This document shows, piece after piece, positions 30,006 through 39,842 of a DNA stretch of 42,111 nt. The translations under genes were made by a program, and so were the position numbers. Source of the stretch: Chloroflexota bacterium. Lineage in GTDB: Bacteria > Chloroflexota > Anaerolineae > Anaerolineales > Anaerolineaceae. The stretch is from NCBI GenBank assembly GCA_012514645.1, contig JAAYZW010000069.1, positions 1 through 42,111 of the forward strand, given 5' to 3'. How positions within the stretch are numbered: the stretch's first letter is position 1; the number at the start of each line of letters is the position of its first letter. Below the pieces are notes generated by a model. That model worked only from the letters and a program-made list of their open reading frames with translations, searched no databases and was not told the DNA's origin.

Positions 30006-31172
30006 CTATGAGCCCCACTGCCAGCGGCTGCCAGGAACAGGCTCGAGGCGCTTAAAACCAGCCCGCGCAAAAAAGCTTGCAAAGCCAATTTCACCAAGGT
30101 CATAACGTTGTAGGAGGGCTTCCCGAGGTTGGTTGATATCATCCAGCGGCAGAGCCAGCAGCGTGGTTGCCCCTGCCCTGCGAGCCTCTTCAATTGCCCT
30201 GTTCAAAAGAGACAGGAAAAGCGAAGCATATTCAGATCGTTTTGCTAATGAGACCTGGCGAACCACCCATTGCTCTGCTCCAGCATCTGTTATGGGAGGG
30301 AAAAGTTCACAAGCGCCAATGCCGCGACCGTTTTCCAACAAAAGCACCCCGATGCGAAAGCTTGCCTCTCGTAAACATTGCAGCGAAATCGGTGGCGTGC
30401 TCTTGCATTTTTCCAACATTTCCAGGAAGGCTGATTGGGTTTCGGATGAGAGTTTGTCGGGCTTGCTCTTGTCGAGGATACTGGTGAAAGACAGATATTC
30501 TGCCGGGCTTCGCGGCACCCGGATGGTGAACTTTTCTGGCAGTTTCCACCTGCCAGGCTCTCCGCGTTCATAGAGCCTGTCGGCATATTCCTGGTACTCT
30601 GGTGGAAGGTTGATTTTGAACAAATTGCAAATATATTGAACATCCATGTAGTCCTGATGATCAAAATCATATCCCAGGTGAAAGTCAACCAACCATTCGG
30701 GGTGAATACAGGCAACATTCATGCCGGCGATTCGCCCTTGCCCGGTCAGGGAATCTCCCGGGTATTGTACGCCACCGATGATCTGCCCCTTACTGTTGCG
30801 AACAAAACTGTGCAGATCAACCTGGTGTCCAGCGCCATTCTCGAGCACAAAATTATGCAGCCACTCATCTGCCCGCGGTAAATATTGGTAATCCAACCGG
30901 CGTAAAATATTTAACAGCCGGGGTAAATATTGCTGGTTAATCGCCAGGTCAAGGTCGGCGTGCTCCCGGGTTTGCCAGCCTAAAAGCGCGTCCACCGCCC
31001 AGCCACCGTCAACCACCACCGGAATGCCTGCGATCTCTGCGAGCTGTAAGACCCGGGCAGTTTCTTCTTCGTTCATTACCGGTTTTTGGGTGCCGTGTAT
31101 CCGCGTTGGAAAATCGGACAGTAATTCAGCCAATCTCGGATCAGCCGGGCGCAGAGCTTTCAGATCACTCAT
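30006..31172 (-). CDS. Nucleotidyltransferase (lincosamide/aminoglycoside nucleotidyltransferase-like) fused to a C-terminal GNAT-like domain
   Basis: VVVDGGWAVDALLGWQTREHADLDLAI...HQVDLHSF (LnuA-like NTase); C-term GVLLLENGRGIGACELFPP...VRQVSLAKRSEYASLFLSLLNRAIEEARRAGATTLLALP...FFARAGFKRL. ATG at 31172. Confidence 0.7.
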   Translation of the reverse strand: MSDLKALRPADPRLAELLSDFPTRIHGTQKPVMNEEETARVLQLAEIAGIPVVVDGGWAVDALLGWQTREHADLDLAINQQYLPRLLNILRRLDYQYLPRADEWLHNFVLENGAGHQVDLHSFVRNSKGQIIGGVQYPGDSLTGQGRIAGMNVACIHPEWLVDFHLGYDFDHQDYMDVQYICNLFKINLPPEYQEYADRLYERGEPGRWKLPEKFTIRVPRSPAEYLSFTSILDKSKPDKLSSETQSAFLEMLEKCKSTPPISLQCLREASFRIGVLLLENGRGIGACELFPPITDAGAEQWVVRQVSLAKRSEYASLFLSLLNRAIEEARRAGATTLLALPLDDINQPREALLQRYDLGEIGFASFFARAGFKRLEPVPGSRWQWGS

Positions 31173-32424
31173 TCTTCCCTCCAACAGGCGTGAGTTTAGG
31201 CTCGAACCTGCCCGCACTGAGGGCGAGAAACAGTGAGAGTAAGTTTAACGCCGCCGCGACCAGGTAGACCTCGCGGTTACCAAAGCGGTCAACCACCAGC
31301 CCACTCAAGGCGTTGCTGACGATGTATCCGACCCCAAACAGGGTCACATAGATGAAAGCATGGGCAGTGTTGACAACCCTTTTTGGCAGTGAGAGATTGA
31401 CAAGCATCAGCGTGCCTACCAGGCGGAAGGTGAAGCTTACCGAGGTGATGATGCTGGTGGCAAAAACCATGGCAGCTGAAGGGAAGAACCAGACCAACAA
31501 GCGTCTGACGAGGTCAAAAAGGATGACAGCGACAATGATTCGCTGAATGCCAATCTTGCGAATCACCCGATCGGCGTACATCATGAAAGGTACTTCTCCG
31601 ATTGCGCTCAACGAACTGGCGAGCCCAACCATCCCCGCCCCGAGCCCGAGGTTGCTCATGTAGATGGGTTCAAACGAACGTACACCATCCTGGGTCGGAT
31701 CTGATATTGCCAGCGCCAGCACCATCAGCCACAAAAAGCGATGCGAAACGACCAGTTTTAGCACAGCCGGGATGCTGAGGCTTTCCTTTGCCTCTTCTTC
31801 TTCCTCCACCTTAAAAACAGAATCGGGCATCAAAAGCAGCACCACCACGCTTAGTCCGGTGAATACCAGGAAGAGCATGGTGTTAATGGTGATTCCAAAG
31901 GACTGGTAAAGCCACCCGGCAAACACGGTGGCGATAGCATAGCCAATTGAACCCCACAGCCTGATTGAGCCGAAACTGGAATTGCCTTTATCGGTTGATT
32001 TGGCGGCAACTGCATAAGAGAGGTTCTCTGAAATCGAATAATATGGTCCCATTACCATACGATAGATCATGTAGGCGAATAATATCGGCACAAACGCTTT
32101 TAACCAGGCGACCGAGCTTAATGAAACCCCCATAATCACGAGAGAGATGACCAGAACCTGGCGCTTATCGATTGCACGGTCGTAGAGCAAACCATATCTG
32201 GGTGCCACCAGGATCAAAGCCGCCGAGCCTACGATCATTATTGTGCTGATTTGGATGCCGCTGAAACCAAGCGAATCATATTGCAGCGACAAGAAAGCCA
32301 ACAGCATGCCTAGGGCAGCAAAAGTGAATAGGAAATATAATCGAAACAGTAATTTTACTGATAGTTGAACCGAGGATCTTGGCATGGCAATAAGTTGTAA
32401 AAAAAGTTTTGTTAATTGTATCAT
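31165..32424 (-). CDS. MFS transporter
   Basis: ~12 TM hydrophobic protein, LLFRLYFLFTFAALGMLLAFLSLQYDSLGFSGIQIS...; 3' end overlaps the start of the 30006-31172 gene. Start uncertain (32424 or 32385). Confidence 0.85.
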   Translation of the reverse strand: MIQLTKLFLQLIAMPRSSVQLSVKLLFRLYFLFTFAALGMLLAFLSLQYDSLGFSGIQISTIMIVGSAALILVAPRYGLLYDRAIDKRQVLVISLVIMGVSLSSVAWLKAFVPILFAYMIYRMVMGPYYSISENLSYAVAAKSTDKGNSSFGSIRLWGSIGYAIATVFAGWLYQSFGITINTMLFLVFTGLSVVVLLLMPDSVFKVEEEEEAKESLSIPAVLKLVVSHRFLWLMVLALAISDPTQDGVRSFEPIYMSNLGLGAGMVGLASSLSAIGEVPFMMYADRVIRKIGIQRIIVAVILFDLVRRLLVWFFPSAAMVFATSIITSVSFTFRLVGTLMLVNLSLPKRVVNTAHAFIYVTLFGVGYIVSNALSGLVVDRFGNREVYLVAAALNLLSLFLALSAGRFEPKLTPVGGKNE

Positions 32425-32514: not shown

Positions 32515-33651
32515 ATGAAAGCCATCGTTCAACAACAGCAACTCGCCCACGGTGTCAGCACTGTTTCACGCGCGGTTACTTCGCGAAGCACCCTCGCGGT
32601 GCTCTCGAATATCCTGATCAGGACCGACGATGGTCGCCTGCGCCTTTCAGCCACCAACCTCGAGCTGGGCATCAGCGCCTGGATCGGTGCGAAAATTGAG
32701 CAGGAGGGCGGGCTGACAGTTCCTGCCAGGACCTTTGTTGATATGGTAAGCAACCTCCCGAACGATGAAGTCACCCTCACGGTCGACGAGCACTCCCAAA
32801 CTTTGAACGTGAAGTGCGGCACCCTCAACACCGATATCAAAGGCATCAGTGCCGAAGAGTTCCCGCCCATGCCGACCCCAAACCTCGATGAAGCGATCGC
32901 CTTAAATGTAGAGAACTTTAAAGATCAAATTGAACAGGTGGTATTCGCGGCTTCAACCGATGATGCACGCCCAAACCTGACTGGTGTGCATATGAGTTTC
33001 AATGGGCACACACTGGAGATGGCGGCGACTGACGGCTTCCGTATTTCGATCGCCAAATCTGAAATGGCTCAAAAAGTCCCCCAAAACTTTGACGCTCTTG
33101 TACCGGCGCGAGCACTTTCAGAATTGAGCAGGATCGCCTCTGATGGCGATGAGACCCTGCTGGTTGCTTTCCCACAGGGGCGCGGGCAGGTTATCTTCCA
33201 GTTGAAAAACGCCCAGTTGGTTTCACAGCTTATCGAGGGCAGTTTCCCCAATTACAGCGCTATTGTTCCGCCCTCATTCAAGACCCGCACAGTGCTTTCG
33301 ACCGCACAACTGCTCAAGGCTTGCAAGCAAACTGAGATTATCGCCCGCGAAGGCAGCTATATTGCCAAACTCGATATTCAACCGGAGACCGAAGGCGAAA
33401 AAAGCTCACTGCTTGAGATCTCTGCGCGTTCTGAACAAACGGGTTCTTCAGAGGTGATGGTTGATGCCTCGGTAGACGGCGTGCCGCTGCTGATCTCATT
33501 CAATATCCGCTACCTGCGCGAAGCGCTGGAGGTGATCAAAACCCCAAATGTCGTGCTGGAAACGAATGCGGTGCATACCCCGGGCTTGCTTCGCCCGGTT
33601 GGTGACGAAAACTTCACACACATAATTATGCCAATTAATACGGCAAGGTAA
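32515..33651 (+). CDS. dnaN: DNA polymerase III subunit beta (sliding clamp)
   Basis: MKAIVQQQQLAHGVSTVSRAVTSRSTLAVLSNILIRTDDGRLRLSATNLELGI ... ATDGFRISIAK ... IRYLREALEVIKTPNVVLE ... FTHIIMPI. Confidence 0.96.
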   Translation: MKAIVQQQQLAHGVSTVSRAVTSRSTLAVLSNILIRTDDGRLRLSATNLELGISAWIGAKIEQEGGLTVPARTFVDMVSNLPNDEVTLTVDEHSQTLNVKCGTLNTDIKGISAEEFPPMPTPNLDEAIALNVENFKDQIEQVVFAASTDDARPNLTGVHMSFNGHTLEMAATDGFRISIAKSEMAQKVPQNFDALVPARALSELSRIASDGDETLLVAFPQGRGQVIFQLKNAQLVSQLIEGSFPNYSAIVPPSFKTRTVLSTAQLLKACKQTEIIAREGSYIAKLDIQPETEGEKSSLLEISARSEQTGSSEVMVDASVDGVPLLISFNIRYLREALEVIKTPNVVLETNAVHTPGLLRPVGDENFTHIIMPINTAR

Positions 33652-36463: not shown

Positions 36464-37195
36464 TCAAAAAAGGCTTAGTTGTTCAGGCGGTGTCTGTTCT
36501 TCAATTTTTTCTGGATTGAGTGATTCTTTGGCAGGATCTTCCTCAGGGTGTTCCACGGATGGTTGAGTCGGTGGAATAACCTCAGCAATGATCTTGCCGA
36601 GGGTGGGATTTTCGGCCTCTTCGGGCACGGCTGGCTTTGCCCTGGAACTGATAAATTTTTTCAACCGCGAGAAGTCTTCAAGCAAAACAGGACGCAAAGC
36701 CGGTTGGTGCAGTGCCGCGGCGGGGTGGTACATTGTGACCACTTTTTGCCCGTTGACATTATGGGTGCGCCCATGGATCGCGCTAATGCGCCCTCCGGTG
36801 ACATACTTTGCCATCGATATGCGCCCCAACGTGACAATCACTTCGGGCTGCAGCAACTTGATTTGCTCGTCCAGATAAACCTGGCAGGCTTCCAGTTCTT
36901 CTGGCAGCGGGTCGCGATTATTAGGCGGTCGGCATTTGACCACATTGGTGATATAAACCTGGTCACGCTCAACACCGGCTGCCTGTATCAATTCGTCTAA
37001 AAACTGACCGGCTTGCCCAACAAAGGGTTTGCCCTGCTTATTTTCATGGAACCCGGGAGCCTCACCGATGAACATAACGTCCACCTTTGCGGGACCCTCA
37101 CCAGGTACAGTGTTTAAGCGACCCTTAGCCAGCGGGCAGCGCTGGCATTTGGTGATTTCTTCGCGAATTTCCTGTAAACGTTGTTCTGAAGACAT
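36464..37195 (-). CDS. Type-4 (Fe-S) uracil-DNA glycosylase with extended C-terminal tail ending QLSLF
   Basis: [58 protein letters not shown]...[25 protein letters not shown]; last codons verified on the - strand as GAA CAA CTA AGC CTT TTT TGA. Confidence 0.93.
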
Positions 37196-37235: not shown

Positions 37236-37730
37236 TTAGACGCTCGTGGAGGGGAGAAAGTTCCTTAATTGGATTTCATCCAGCCTGTCAAGGTTAAGTA
37301 ACAAGGCGTCTTCGTGGTCGTTTTGATAATATTTTTCCCGGACTCCCACTACCCTGTATCCAAAGCGTTCATAAAGTCTGAGAGCGGGCAGGTTGCTCCG
37401 CCTAACTTCAAGCAAGGACGAGGTTGCTCCCCTGCGACAGGCAATCAGCAGCGCGCTGGACAAAAGGGCAGAACCGACTCCCTGGTGCAAATAATCCGGG
37501 TGGACGGCGATCGTGGCAACATGCGCCTCATCGACCACCAGCCAGACCACAATCGCGCCAATCACTTTCCCCTCCTGGTCCTCAGCCACGAGGGCGATAC
37601 TATAGGTGGTGGTCAGTTCGTATGCAAAGGTGTTGGTTGGCCAGGGTTCGCTAAAACTGATCCGGTCAATTTCGCCAACCATGCCTAAATCTTTCCGTTT
37701 CATCGGTCTGACATGAATAATCGCGTCCAT
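37236..37730 (-). CDS. rimI: Ribosomal protein alanine N-acetyltransferase
   Basis: [69 protein letters not shown], next to tsaB/tsaE. Confidence 0.92.
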
Positions 37731-37743
37731 GTTTGTTAAATTG

Positions 37744-38412
37744 CTAATCAGGAAGGTTGCTCAACGTATGAACATAGATCGGCGAAAGGCTGACCACGTC
37801 GTCGGCGTGACCTTCCTGCAACTTTGTCCAGGCTAATTCCGCCAGGACCGAAGCCCTGCGCACGCACAACGAAGCCGGCGCAAGCTGCGCTGTCTTCCAC
37901 TTTCGCCCCATGATCTGCCGCTCTTCAGCGTTCATTTCACCGACAATGTAAGTGGCCGAGGTGATCGTAGAGGCGATTGTCTTGACATCGTCAACCTGGG
38001 TTTCAGTTATCTGCCCCCATGATGGGTTTTTGTAGCGGAAGCGCGCCCAGGCAAAACGACCACGCCCAACCTTAACCATGGCGGTCATTGGTTTGCGCAA
38101 GCCCGGCTGCGCTGCGACCAGGAATTCGAGTGTCGGCACGCCCGCGATCGGGATTTTTCGCCCGAGTGCCAGACCTTTGGCAGCACTGAGCCCGATGCGC
38201 AGACCGGTGAAAGAACCGGGACCAAGCGCGACGCCCACACCAGTTAGCTGCGATGGCTTAACCTGGCATTTCGCCAGCATGTCGGCGATCGCGGGAACCA
38301 GCTCGACCGTGTGGTAATTCTGACTGCGCCAGTTGTGCTCTGCCAATACCTGGACGCCGTCATAGAGCGCGATACCGATCCATTGGGAGGATGTGTCAAT
38401 TGCTACCAACAT
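37744..38412 (-). CDS. tsaB: tRNA threonylcarbamoyladenosine biosynthesis protein TsaB
   Basis: MLVAIDTSSQWIGIALYDG...TGVGVALGPGSFTGLRIGLSAAKGLALG. Confidence 0.94.
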   Translation of the reverse strand: MLVAIDTSSQWIGIALYDGVQVLAEHNWRSQNYHTVELVPAIADMLAKCQVKPSQLTGVGVALGPGSFTGLRIGLSAAKGLALGRKIPIAGVPTLEFLVAAQPGLRKPMTAMVKVGRGRFAWARFRYKNPSWGQITETQVDDVKTIASTITSATYIVGEMNAEERQIMGRKWKTAQLAPASLCVRRASVLAELAWTKLQEGHADDVVSLSPIYVHTLSNLPD

Positions 38413-38413
38413 A

Positions 38414-38914
38414 TCAGGCTCCAAACAAGGCTTTCTGTAATTTTTTCAGCAACTGTTCATAACGTTTGCCGTTGGGAGTGAGGATGAGATGGCGCTGTTC
38501 GGGGTTGATCCAATCCATCTCGATCCACAAATTCTCTTCTGGCAGGCTTGCTTTCATTCGTTCCGCCCATTCCATTACCAAAACTCCATTGGAGAGCGCT
38601 TGTTCAACTTCCAAAATAGCACTGTCAAGTGGTTGGTCCGGCATCAACCGGTAAGCATCGGTATGGTAAAGGGTCGCGCCAGTGGGATGGCGATATTCGT
38701 TCATGATCACGTAAGTCGGACTGGTTACTCGGTCTGCCGAGCCCCAGCCCTGGACGATACCGCGCACCAGGGTTGTTTTTCCAGAACCAAGGTCGCCTTC
38801 GAGGCAAACTACATCACCATTCTGCAAAAAGTTGCCCAGTCGCACGCCCACCCGCAGCGTCTGCTCGGGGCTATGGCTGAAAAATTCAAAGGCATGAGGC
38901 TTTAAAATAGGCAT
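38414..38914 (-). CDS. tsaE: tRNA threonylcarbamoyladenosine biosynthesis ATPase TsaE
   Basis: VCLEGDLGSGKTTLVRGIVQGWG, SPTYVIMNEY, YHTDAYRL, VLVMEWAERM. Confidence 0.95.
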   Translation of the reverse strand: MPILKPHAFEFFSHSPEQTLRVGVRLGNFLQNGDVVCLEGDLGSGKTTLVRGIVQGWGSADRVTSPTYVIMNEYRHPTGATLYHTDAYRLMPDQPLDSAILEVEQALSNGVLVMEWAERMKASLPEENLWIEMDWINPEQRHLILTPNGKRYEQLLKKLQKALFGA

Positions 38915-39273: not shown

Positions 39274-39522
39274 TTAAATAGTGATTTGTTCGTGAGGGTA
39301 GACCATACCCTCGAGAATAAATTCAAGACCCATGGTGTGGGCGCAGATTCCACGACTTTGGAAGTAATTACAAGTGCAGGTCCATTCTCCGTCGGAATAG
39401 GTTACAGTATGGTCGTTGTTTTCCCCTTTGAATTGAGCACTAAAACTGCTGATTTTGATGCGGTCACGTTCTTCCGCATAGCGTTTTGCCTTCTCGATTT
39501 TACCGATTAATCCGCTGTCCAT
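39274..39522 (-). CDS. Small SWIM zinc-finger domain protein
   Basis: 82 aa from ATG 39522; EWTCTCNYFQSRGICAHTMGLE matches CxCx(n)CxH SWIM. Confidence 0.75.
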   Translation of the reverse strand: MDSGLIGKIEKAKRYAEERDRIKISSFSAQFKGENNDHTVTYSDGEWTCTCNYFQSRGICAHTMGLEFILEGMVYPHEQITI

Positions 39523-39842
39523 TAGGTAGGCTCCTTTACCAAGAAATAAAAAACACGCGCCAAATATTAACGGCGAGTGTCTTAGTTGACTTCGACTGGG
39601 CACGAAATGTGCGTATCAAGCTAACTCCTGCATAGTGGCTTAATTATAGAGGGGATCGGGCAGTTCGTCAATCAGAACTGCAAGGTTGAAGGAGGGAAAC
39701 AGGGTATGGGGAACAGAGGACAGAGCGCAATTCATCTTTTTCATTTGAAAACTGTGGGTTATGGCGTCAGTCAGATCGCGTTGTTTATCCTGTCGTCATT
39801 CGTGTTTGGCAAAGCACCAACACACGCTATGTCATGGGTTCA

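Follow-up and report, generated by a model that had tools for sequence, protein, structure and literature searches.

A family-4 uracil-DNA glycosylase with a C-terminal extension

The window analyzed here is a stretch of 42,111 nucleotides from a Chloroflexota bacterium of the family Anaerolineaceae (contig JAAYZW010000069.1 of assembly GCA_012514645.1). It carries a gene for a uracil-DNA glycosylase (UDG) that extends past its core domain, and a gene for the beta sliding clamp, DnaN. The features relevant to this report are as follows.

36464..37195, minus strand: family-4 uracil-DNA glycosylase, 243 amino acids (ATG at 37195, stop codon at 36464-36466)
36641..37195, minus strand: glycosylase core, residues 1-185 (alignment, and pLDDT of 93-98 up to residue 180)
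36482..36640, minus strand: Pro/Glu-rich disordered linker, residues 186-238 (pLDDT and composition)
36467..36481, minus strand: C-terminal predicted clamp-binding pentapeptide QLSLF, residues 239-243 (CAACTAAGCCTTTTT, then stop)
32515..33651, plus strand: dnaN, beta sliding clamp and presumed partner (TIGR00663, 299.8 bits; cleft largely conserved)
37236..38914, minus strand: rimI-like acetyltransferase, tsaB and tsaE, the co-directional upstream genes of the glycosylase (conserved neighborhood)

A first-pass annotation of this DNA had described a uracil-DNA glycosylase with an acidic, proline-rich tail ending in QLSLF, and both parts of that description hold. The letters and coordinates of the tail are exact in the 243-residue open reading frame on the minus strand, and the core matches the family-4 profile TIGR00758 at 202 bits (cut-off 125.3). 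The protein does not reach the threshold of the stricter archaeal equivalog NF040953 (224.4 versus 250). Alignment places the Fe-S cysteines at C17, C20, C88, and C104, and identifies GEAPGFHE and HPAAALHQ as the other core motifs. Furthermore, the AlphaFold model of the core aligns with the solved family-4 enzymes of Sulfolobus (4zbx), Thermotoga (1l9g), and Thermus (1ui0) with target TM scores of 0.88-0.90. Profile, cysteines, and predicted fold thus all assign the protein to family 4. A family-1 Ung was not detected in this genome, whose assembly is 93% complete, and the family-4 protein is therefore probably the chief uracil glycosylase encoded there.

Among 44 aligned sequences, cysteines C17, C20, and C104 are invariant, and C88 is nearly so. 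A few Chloroflexota orthologs replace this third Fe-S cysteine, which lies in the motif KCRPP, to give KDRPP (L135), KSRPP (L153), or KHRPP (L183). These substitutions raise the question of whether such proteins retain the cluster.

The AlphaFold model consists of an ordered core that stops near residue 185 and an unstructured tail, as expected from the earlier proposal that the tail is flexible. The linker has pLDDT values of about 53-69, lacks secondary structure, and has a composition that gives a net charge of -8 across residues 185-238. At the last residues of the protein the values climb back to 72-76, a possible sign of contact with the core, although the rise may simply mirror conservation in the alignment. 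We also scanned the 2.03 Mb genome with a degenerate nucleotide pattern for QL[S/T]LF followed by a stop, with Gln as CAR. Among the three matches, the glycosylase alone closes with a stop codon, and the other two end in TGG. Judged from sequence and model, a canonical clamp motif (QL[S/D]LF or QxxLF) lies in an accessible, disordered segment of this glycosylase.

Conservation of the terminal peptide across Chloroflexota

Orthologs were drawn from the class, from the phylum, and from named Anaerolineaceae genomes, and their C-termini were read. The non-redundant collection includes 179 proteins, of which 115 belong to Anaerolineae and 64 to other classes of the phylum. The class-level set comprises best matches to a query containing the tail, and the phylum-level set, which was gathered with a core-only family model, gives the same picture of the tail.

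The tail is strongly conserved in relatives, a point on which the initial proposal depended and which it had named as a check. The motif Q[LM]x[LMF][FL] is present inside the last 20 residues of 169 of the 179 orthologs (113/115 in Anaerolineae and 56/64 in other classes). The protein ends exactly with Q[LM]x[LMF]F in 148 of the 179, and with QLSLF itself in 88. The preferences by position are Q, then L/M, S/R/T/N, L/M, and F/L, and in Anaerolineae the linker has an information content of about 1 bit, against 3.3-4.3 bits for the five positions of the motif. By hand count, the motif is kept over roughly 30 family-level groups of Anaerolineae and about 40 in other classes.

It might be argued that the motif arose by chance or was inherited as a low-complexity ending, and that it has no function, given that the linker itself is of low complexity. 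We regard this as exceedingly improbable, and it is refuted by the retention of the motif over many family-level groups even though the orthologs are only 44-75% identical to the window protein by alignment, and by the synonymous turnover of its codons. Specifically, the 88 copies of QLSLF are encoded by 69 different 15-mers, which indicates selection on the peptide. When tails were shuffled, a Q[LM]x[LMF]F ending arose in 11 of 178,000 trials (0.006%), and this ending was found in none of 1718 other long open reading frames from the same loci. Judging from these comparisons, the terminal peptide shows the pattern expected when a short linear motif at the tip of a free linker is under strong selection at the protein level.

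A second alternative accepts selection on the peptide but holds that it serves as a degradation signal or binds some other partner, such as an adaptor, a protease, or SSB, rather than the clamp. The motif forms the exact C-terminus of most orthologs, where degrons and SSB-type tails sit. However, several orthologs carry residues past the motif (QLSLFDC, QLTLFG, QLSLFD, QLGLFEG, QLDLFGGGASSGGSD), and therefore a free carboxylate is not needed. In addition, the pattern at each position is that of the clamp consensus, and the Gln would be superfluous for a hydrophobic degron. We therefore find this alternative very unlikely.

Ten orthologs lack a strict match. Several of these hold degenerate forms (QRSLF, QKTLFDL, QIPLFESFA), and about four show no trace of the motif. 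A frameshift as the cause was ruled out, because no clamp motif was found in the other reading frames of the ten genes, and so these losses look real or degenerate. Since about four of the 179 orthologs seem to be motif-less, the motif is not essential in every lineage.

Some glycosylases from outside Anaerolineae (L125, L129, L131, L134, L140, and L144) end in QLRLL or QLTLL rather than QLxLF. This shared change of the last residue could conceivably be accompanied by a matching change in the DnaN cleft.

Relatives without the tail

Tail-less family-4 homologs are common among the relatives sampled. The solved enzymes of Sulfolobus and Thermotoga stop at about the end of the core, and the motif is absent from the Collinsella, alpha- and betaproteobacterial, and phage family-4 members examined. 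Sampling of other bacterial phyla was through plasmid and phage records only, and in these the motif is present in none of nine readable relatives, including those of Collinsella, Mycetohabitans, and Azospirillum (a tenth, from Manganitrophus, is not clearly readable). The motif is likewise found within the last 20 residues of none of 71 distinct viral relatives. A good part of these viral frames read on into sequence resembling a polymerase and leave the locus before closing, so that only the closed frames allow a fair comparison. A viral scan with the alignment as query found 80 loci, none with the motif, and a viral scan with the single protein as query gave no matches. Because homologs without the tail are common elsewhere, the tail is best regarded as an addition that is typical of Chloroflexota in this sample.

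Many of the viral UDG-like frames (L202, L204, L212, L213, L214, and L217, among others) continue into an apparent family-A DNA polymerase. Thus, viruses seem to join the UDG-like domain to a polymerase and not to rely on a peptide for the clamp.

The distribution of the tail also bears on a third alternative, in which the peptide docks back onto the core of its own enzyme to regulate catalysis or to stabilize the fold. The small rise in pLDDT at the very end of the chain is in keeping with such contacts, but the stretch from the HP motif to the Gln of the peptide ranges from 39 to 86 residues among orthologs, and the sequence of the linker diverges completely. Moreover, the tail is missing from solved family-4 enzymes and from many viral and bacterial relatives. 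Intramolecular docking is therefore very unlikely in our estimation.

The sliding clamp as the presumed partner

We take the peptide-binding cleft of the E. coli clamp to include L155, T172, G174, L177, F241, P242, V247, N320, Y323, V360, M362, P363, and M364, with H175 and R246 at its rim. On comparing the DnaN encoded in the window with the E. coli protein (E. coli numbering), we found that L155, T172, G174, F241, P242, N320, Y323, M362, and P363 are identical. Four other cleft positions carry conservative changes (L177I, V247I, V360I, and M364I), and both rim positions differ (H175F and R246A). In the numbering of the window protein, the residues that form the cleft include T172, I177, P245, I250, I370, and M372. 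The cleft of the cognate clamp therefore appears largely intact, with most residues identical or conservatively replaced.

The DinB polymerase of the same genome carries the motif QLGLF, and therefore the window clamp very probably recognizes the same QLxLF-type code. In the assembly, dnaE is truncated.

The consensus for clamp binding is QL[S/D]LF, or more broadly QxxLF (PMC12309361), with which the position preferences of the Chloroflexota glycosylase motif agree. The polymerase PolC of Bacillus subtilis ends in the identical pentapeptide, although it is a replicative polymerase and not a repair glycosylase. The KD of its C-terminal QLSLF for DnaN is 3.8 uM, and the affinity for the E. coli clamp is higher still (PMC12309361). 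This consensus, together with the measured PolC ligand, is in line with the initial statement that QL(S/D)LF is the canonical bacterial clamp pentapeptide (PMC12309361).

A proposed role in replication-linked uracil repair

Given the sequence and structure predictions described above, we consider it highly probable that the glycosylase uses its disordered linker and QLSLF peptide to dock on DnaN, and that uracil repair is thereby linked to replication. Recruitment to DnaN had been suggested in the first-pass annotation, and this reading is supported by the conservation of the tail, the AlphaFold model, the clamp cleft, the PolC ligand, and the analogy to archaeal UDG-PCNA complexes. Likewise, the near phylum-wide retention of a clamp-type ending suggests that uracil repair is hooked to the replication machinery in Chloroflexota.

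In the proposed mechanism, the peptide would dock into the hydrophobic cleft formed where domains II and III of DnaN meet, and the glycosylase would thereby be concentrated at clamps that stay behind on DNA after its replication. Uracil arising from misincorporated dUTP or from cytosine deamination might then be removed near the fork, and the same clamp could then supply the repair polymerase and ligase. Perhaps the clamp also stimulates glycosylase activity, and the coupling may influence the mutation rate.

Clamp coupling of uracil glycosylases is already established for eukaryotes and archaea. In human cells, the PIP box of UNG2 is N-terminal. As in our proposal, UNG2 is a glycosylase that partners with a sliding clamp (PCNA), although it is a family-1 enzyme. 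Archaeal UDGs also bind PCNA, and the Pyrococcus furiosus enzyme is stimulated by PCNA, which it binds through a short peptide with a KD of 220 nM (PMC4858679). The initial claim that archaeal family-4 UDGs bind PCNA is in agreement with this archaeal binding (PMC4858679). The S. solfataricus enzyme belongs to family 4. The archaeal systems (P. furiosus, S. solfataricus, and P. aerophilum) likewise join a uracil glycosylase to a sliding clamp. However, the archaeal partner is PCNA, which the P. furiosus enzyme binds through an internal peptide, AKTLF, whereas in Chloroflexota the predicted partner is DnaN and the peptide sits at the C-terminus, after a disordered linker.

In mycobacteria, the base-excision enzymes Nei2 and XthA are interaction partners of the beta clamp, DnaN; the clamp stimulates Nei2, whose motif is reported to be peculiar (PMC9690074). 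The Chloroflexota glycosylase would share with them the link to the clamp, but they are different enzymes from UDG. A table of clamp partners published in 2022 lists no UDG for bacteria, and its eukaryotic column has UNG2 as a PCNA partner (PMC9690074). A search of mainly open-access literature turned up no earlier description of a bacterial UDG with a clamp motif. Thus, both the enzyme family and the docking peptide are known, and it is their combination that seems to be undescribed in bacteria.

The best reading of these sequence similarities and analogies is that the Chloroflexota UDG tail probably represents a bacterial counterpart of archaeal UDG-PCNA coupling. It also seems likely, if less so than docking by the enzyme studied here, that replisome-tethered uracil repair extends across the phylum, with a clamp-docking tail gained early in Chloroflexota and with DnaN playing the part that PCNA plays for UNG2 and archaeal UDG. 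If this is true, uracil base-excision repair would be coupled to the fork in Chloroflexota, unlike that by the tail-less family-4 enzymes sampled elsewhere. With such a peptide carried by the UDG of a whole bacterial phylum, fork-coupled uracil repair would also be a solution that recurs in all three domains. Furthermore, the tails of the Chloroflexota orthologs constitute a large natural alignment of predicted DnaN-binding peptides.

Gene neighborhood

The adjacency of rimI and udg, and that of udg and tsaE, are also found in other phyla, and Collinsella and Mycetohabitans have a partial version of this neighborhood. The first-pass annotation had also pointed to a dnaN gene about 3 kb away. 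Its position at 32515-33651 was correct, and the actual distance from the glycosylase gene is 2.8 kb, with two sugar-nucleotide genes between. As support for coupling, this proximity did not stand up and was rejected, because the two genes are on opposite strands, share no operon, and do not lie close together in general. A nearby dnaN recurs in a close relative (L031), but in another (L034) none lies in the 3.7 kb that flank the shared genes. The nearby dnaN is therefore probably incidental.

Two other genes on the minus strand of the window deserve mention. The gene at 30006-31217 encodes a nucleotidyltransferase domain resembling aminoglycoside-2''-adenylyltransferase (PF10706, 79 bits) and overlaps the end of the adjoining MFS transporter gene. 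At 39274-39603 there is a lone small protein with a match to the SWIM zinc finger (PF04434).
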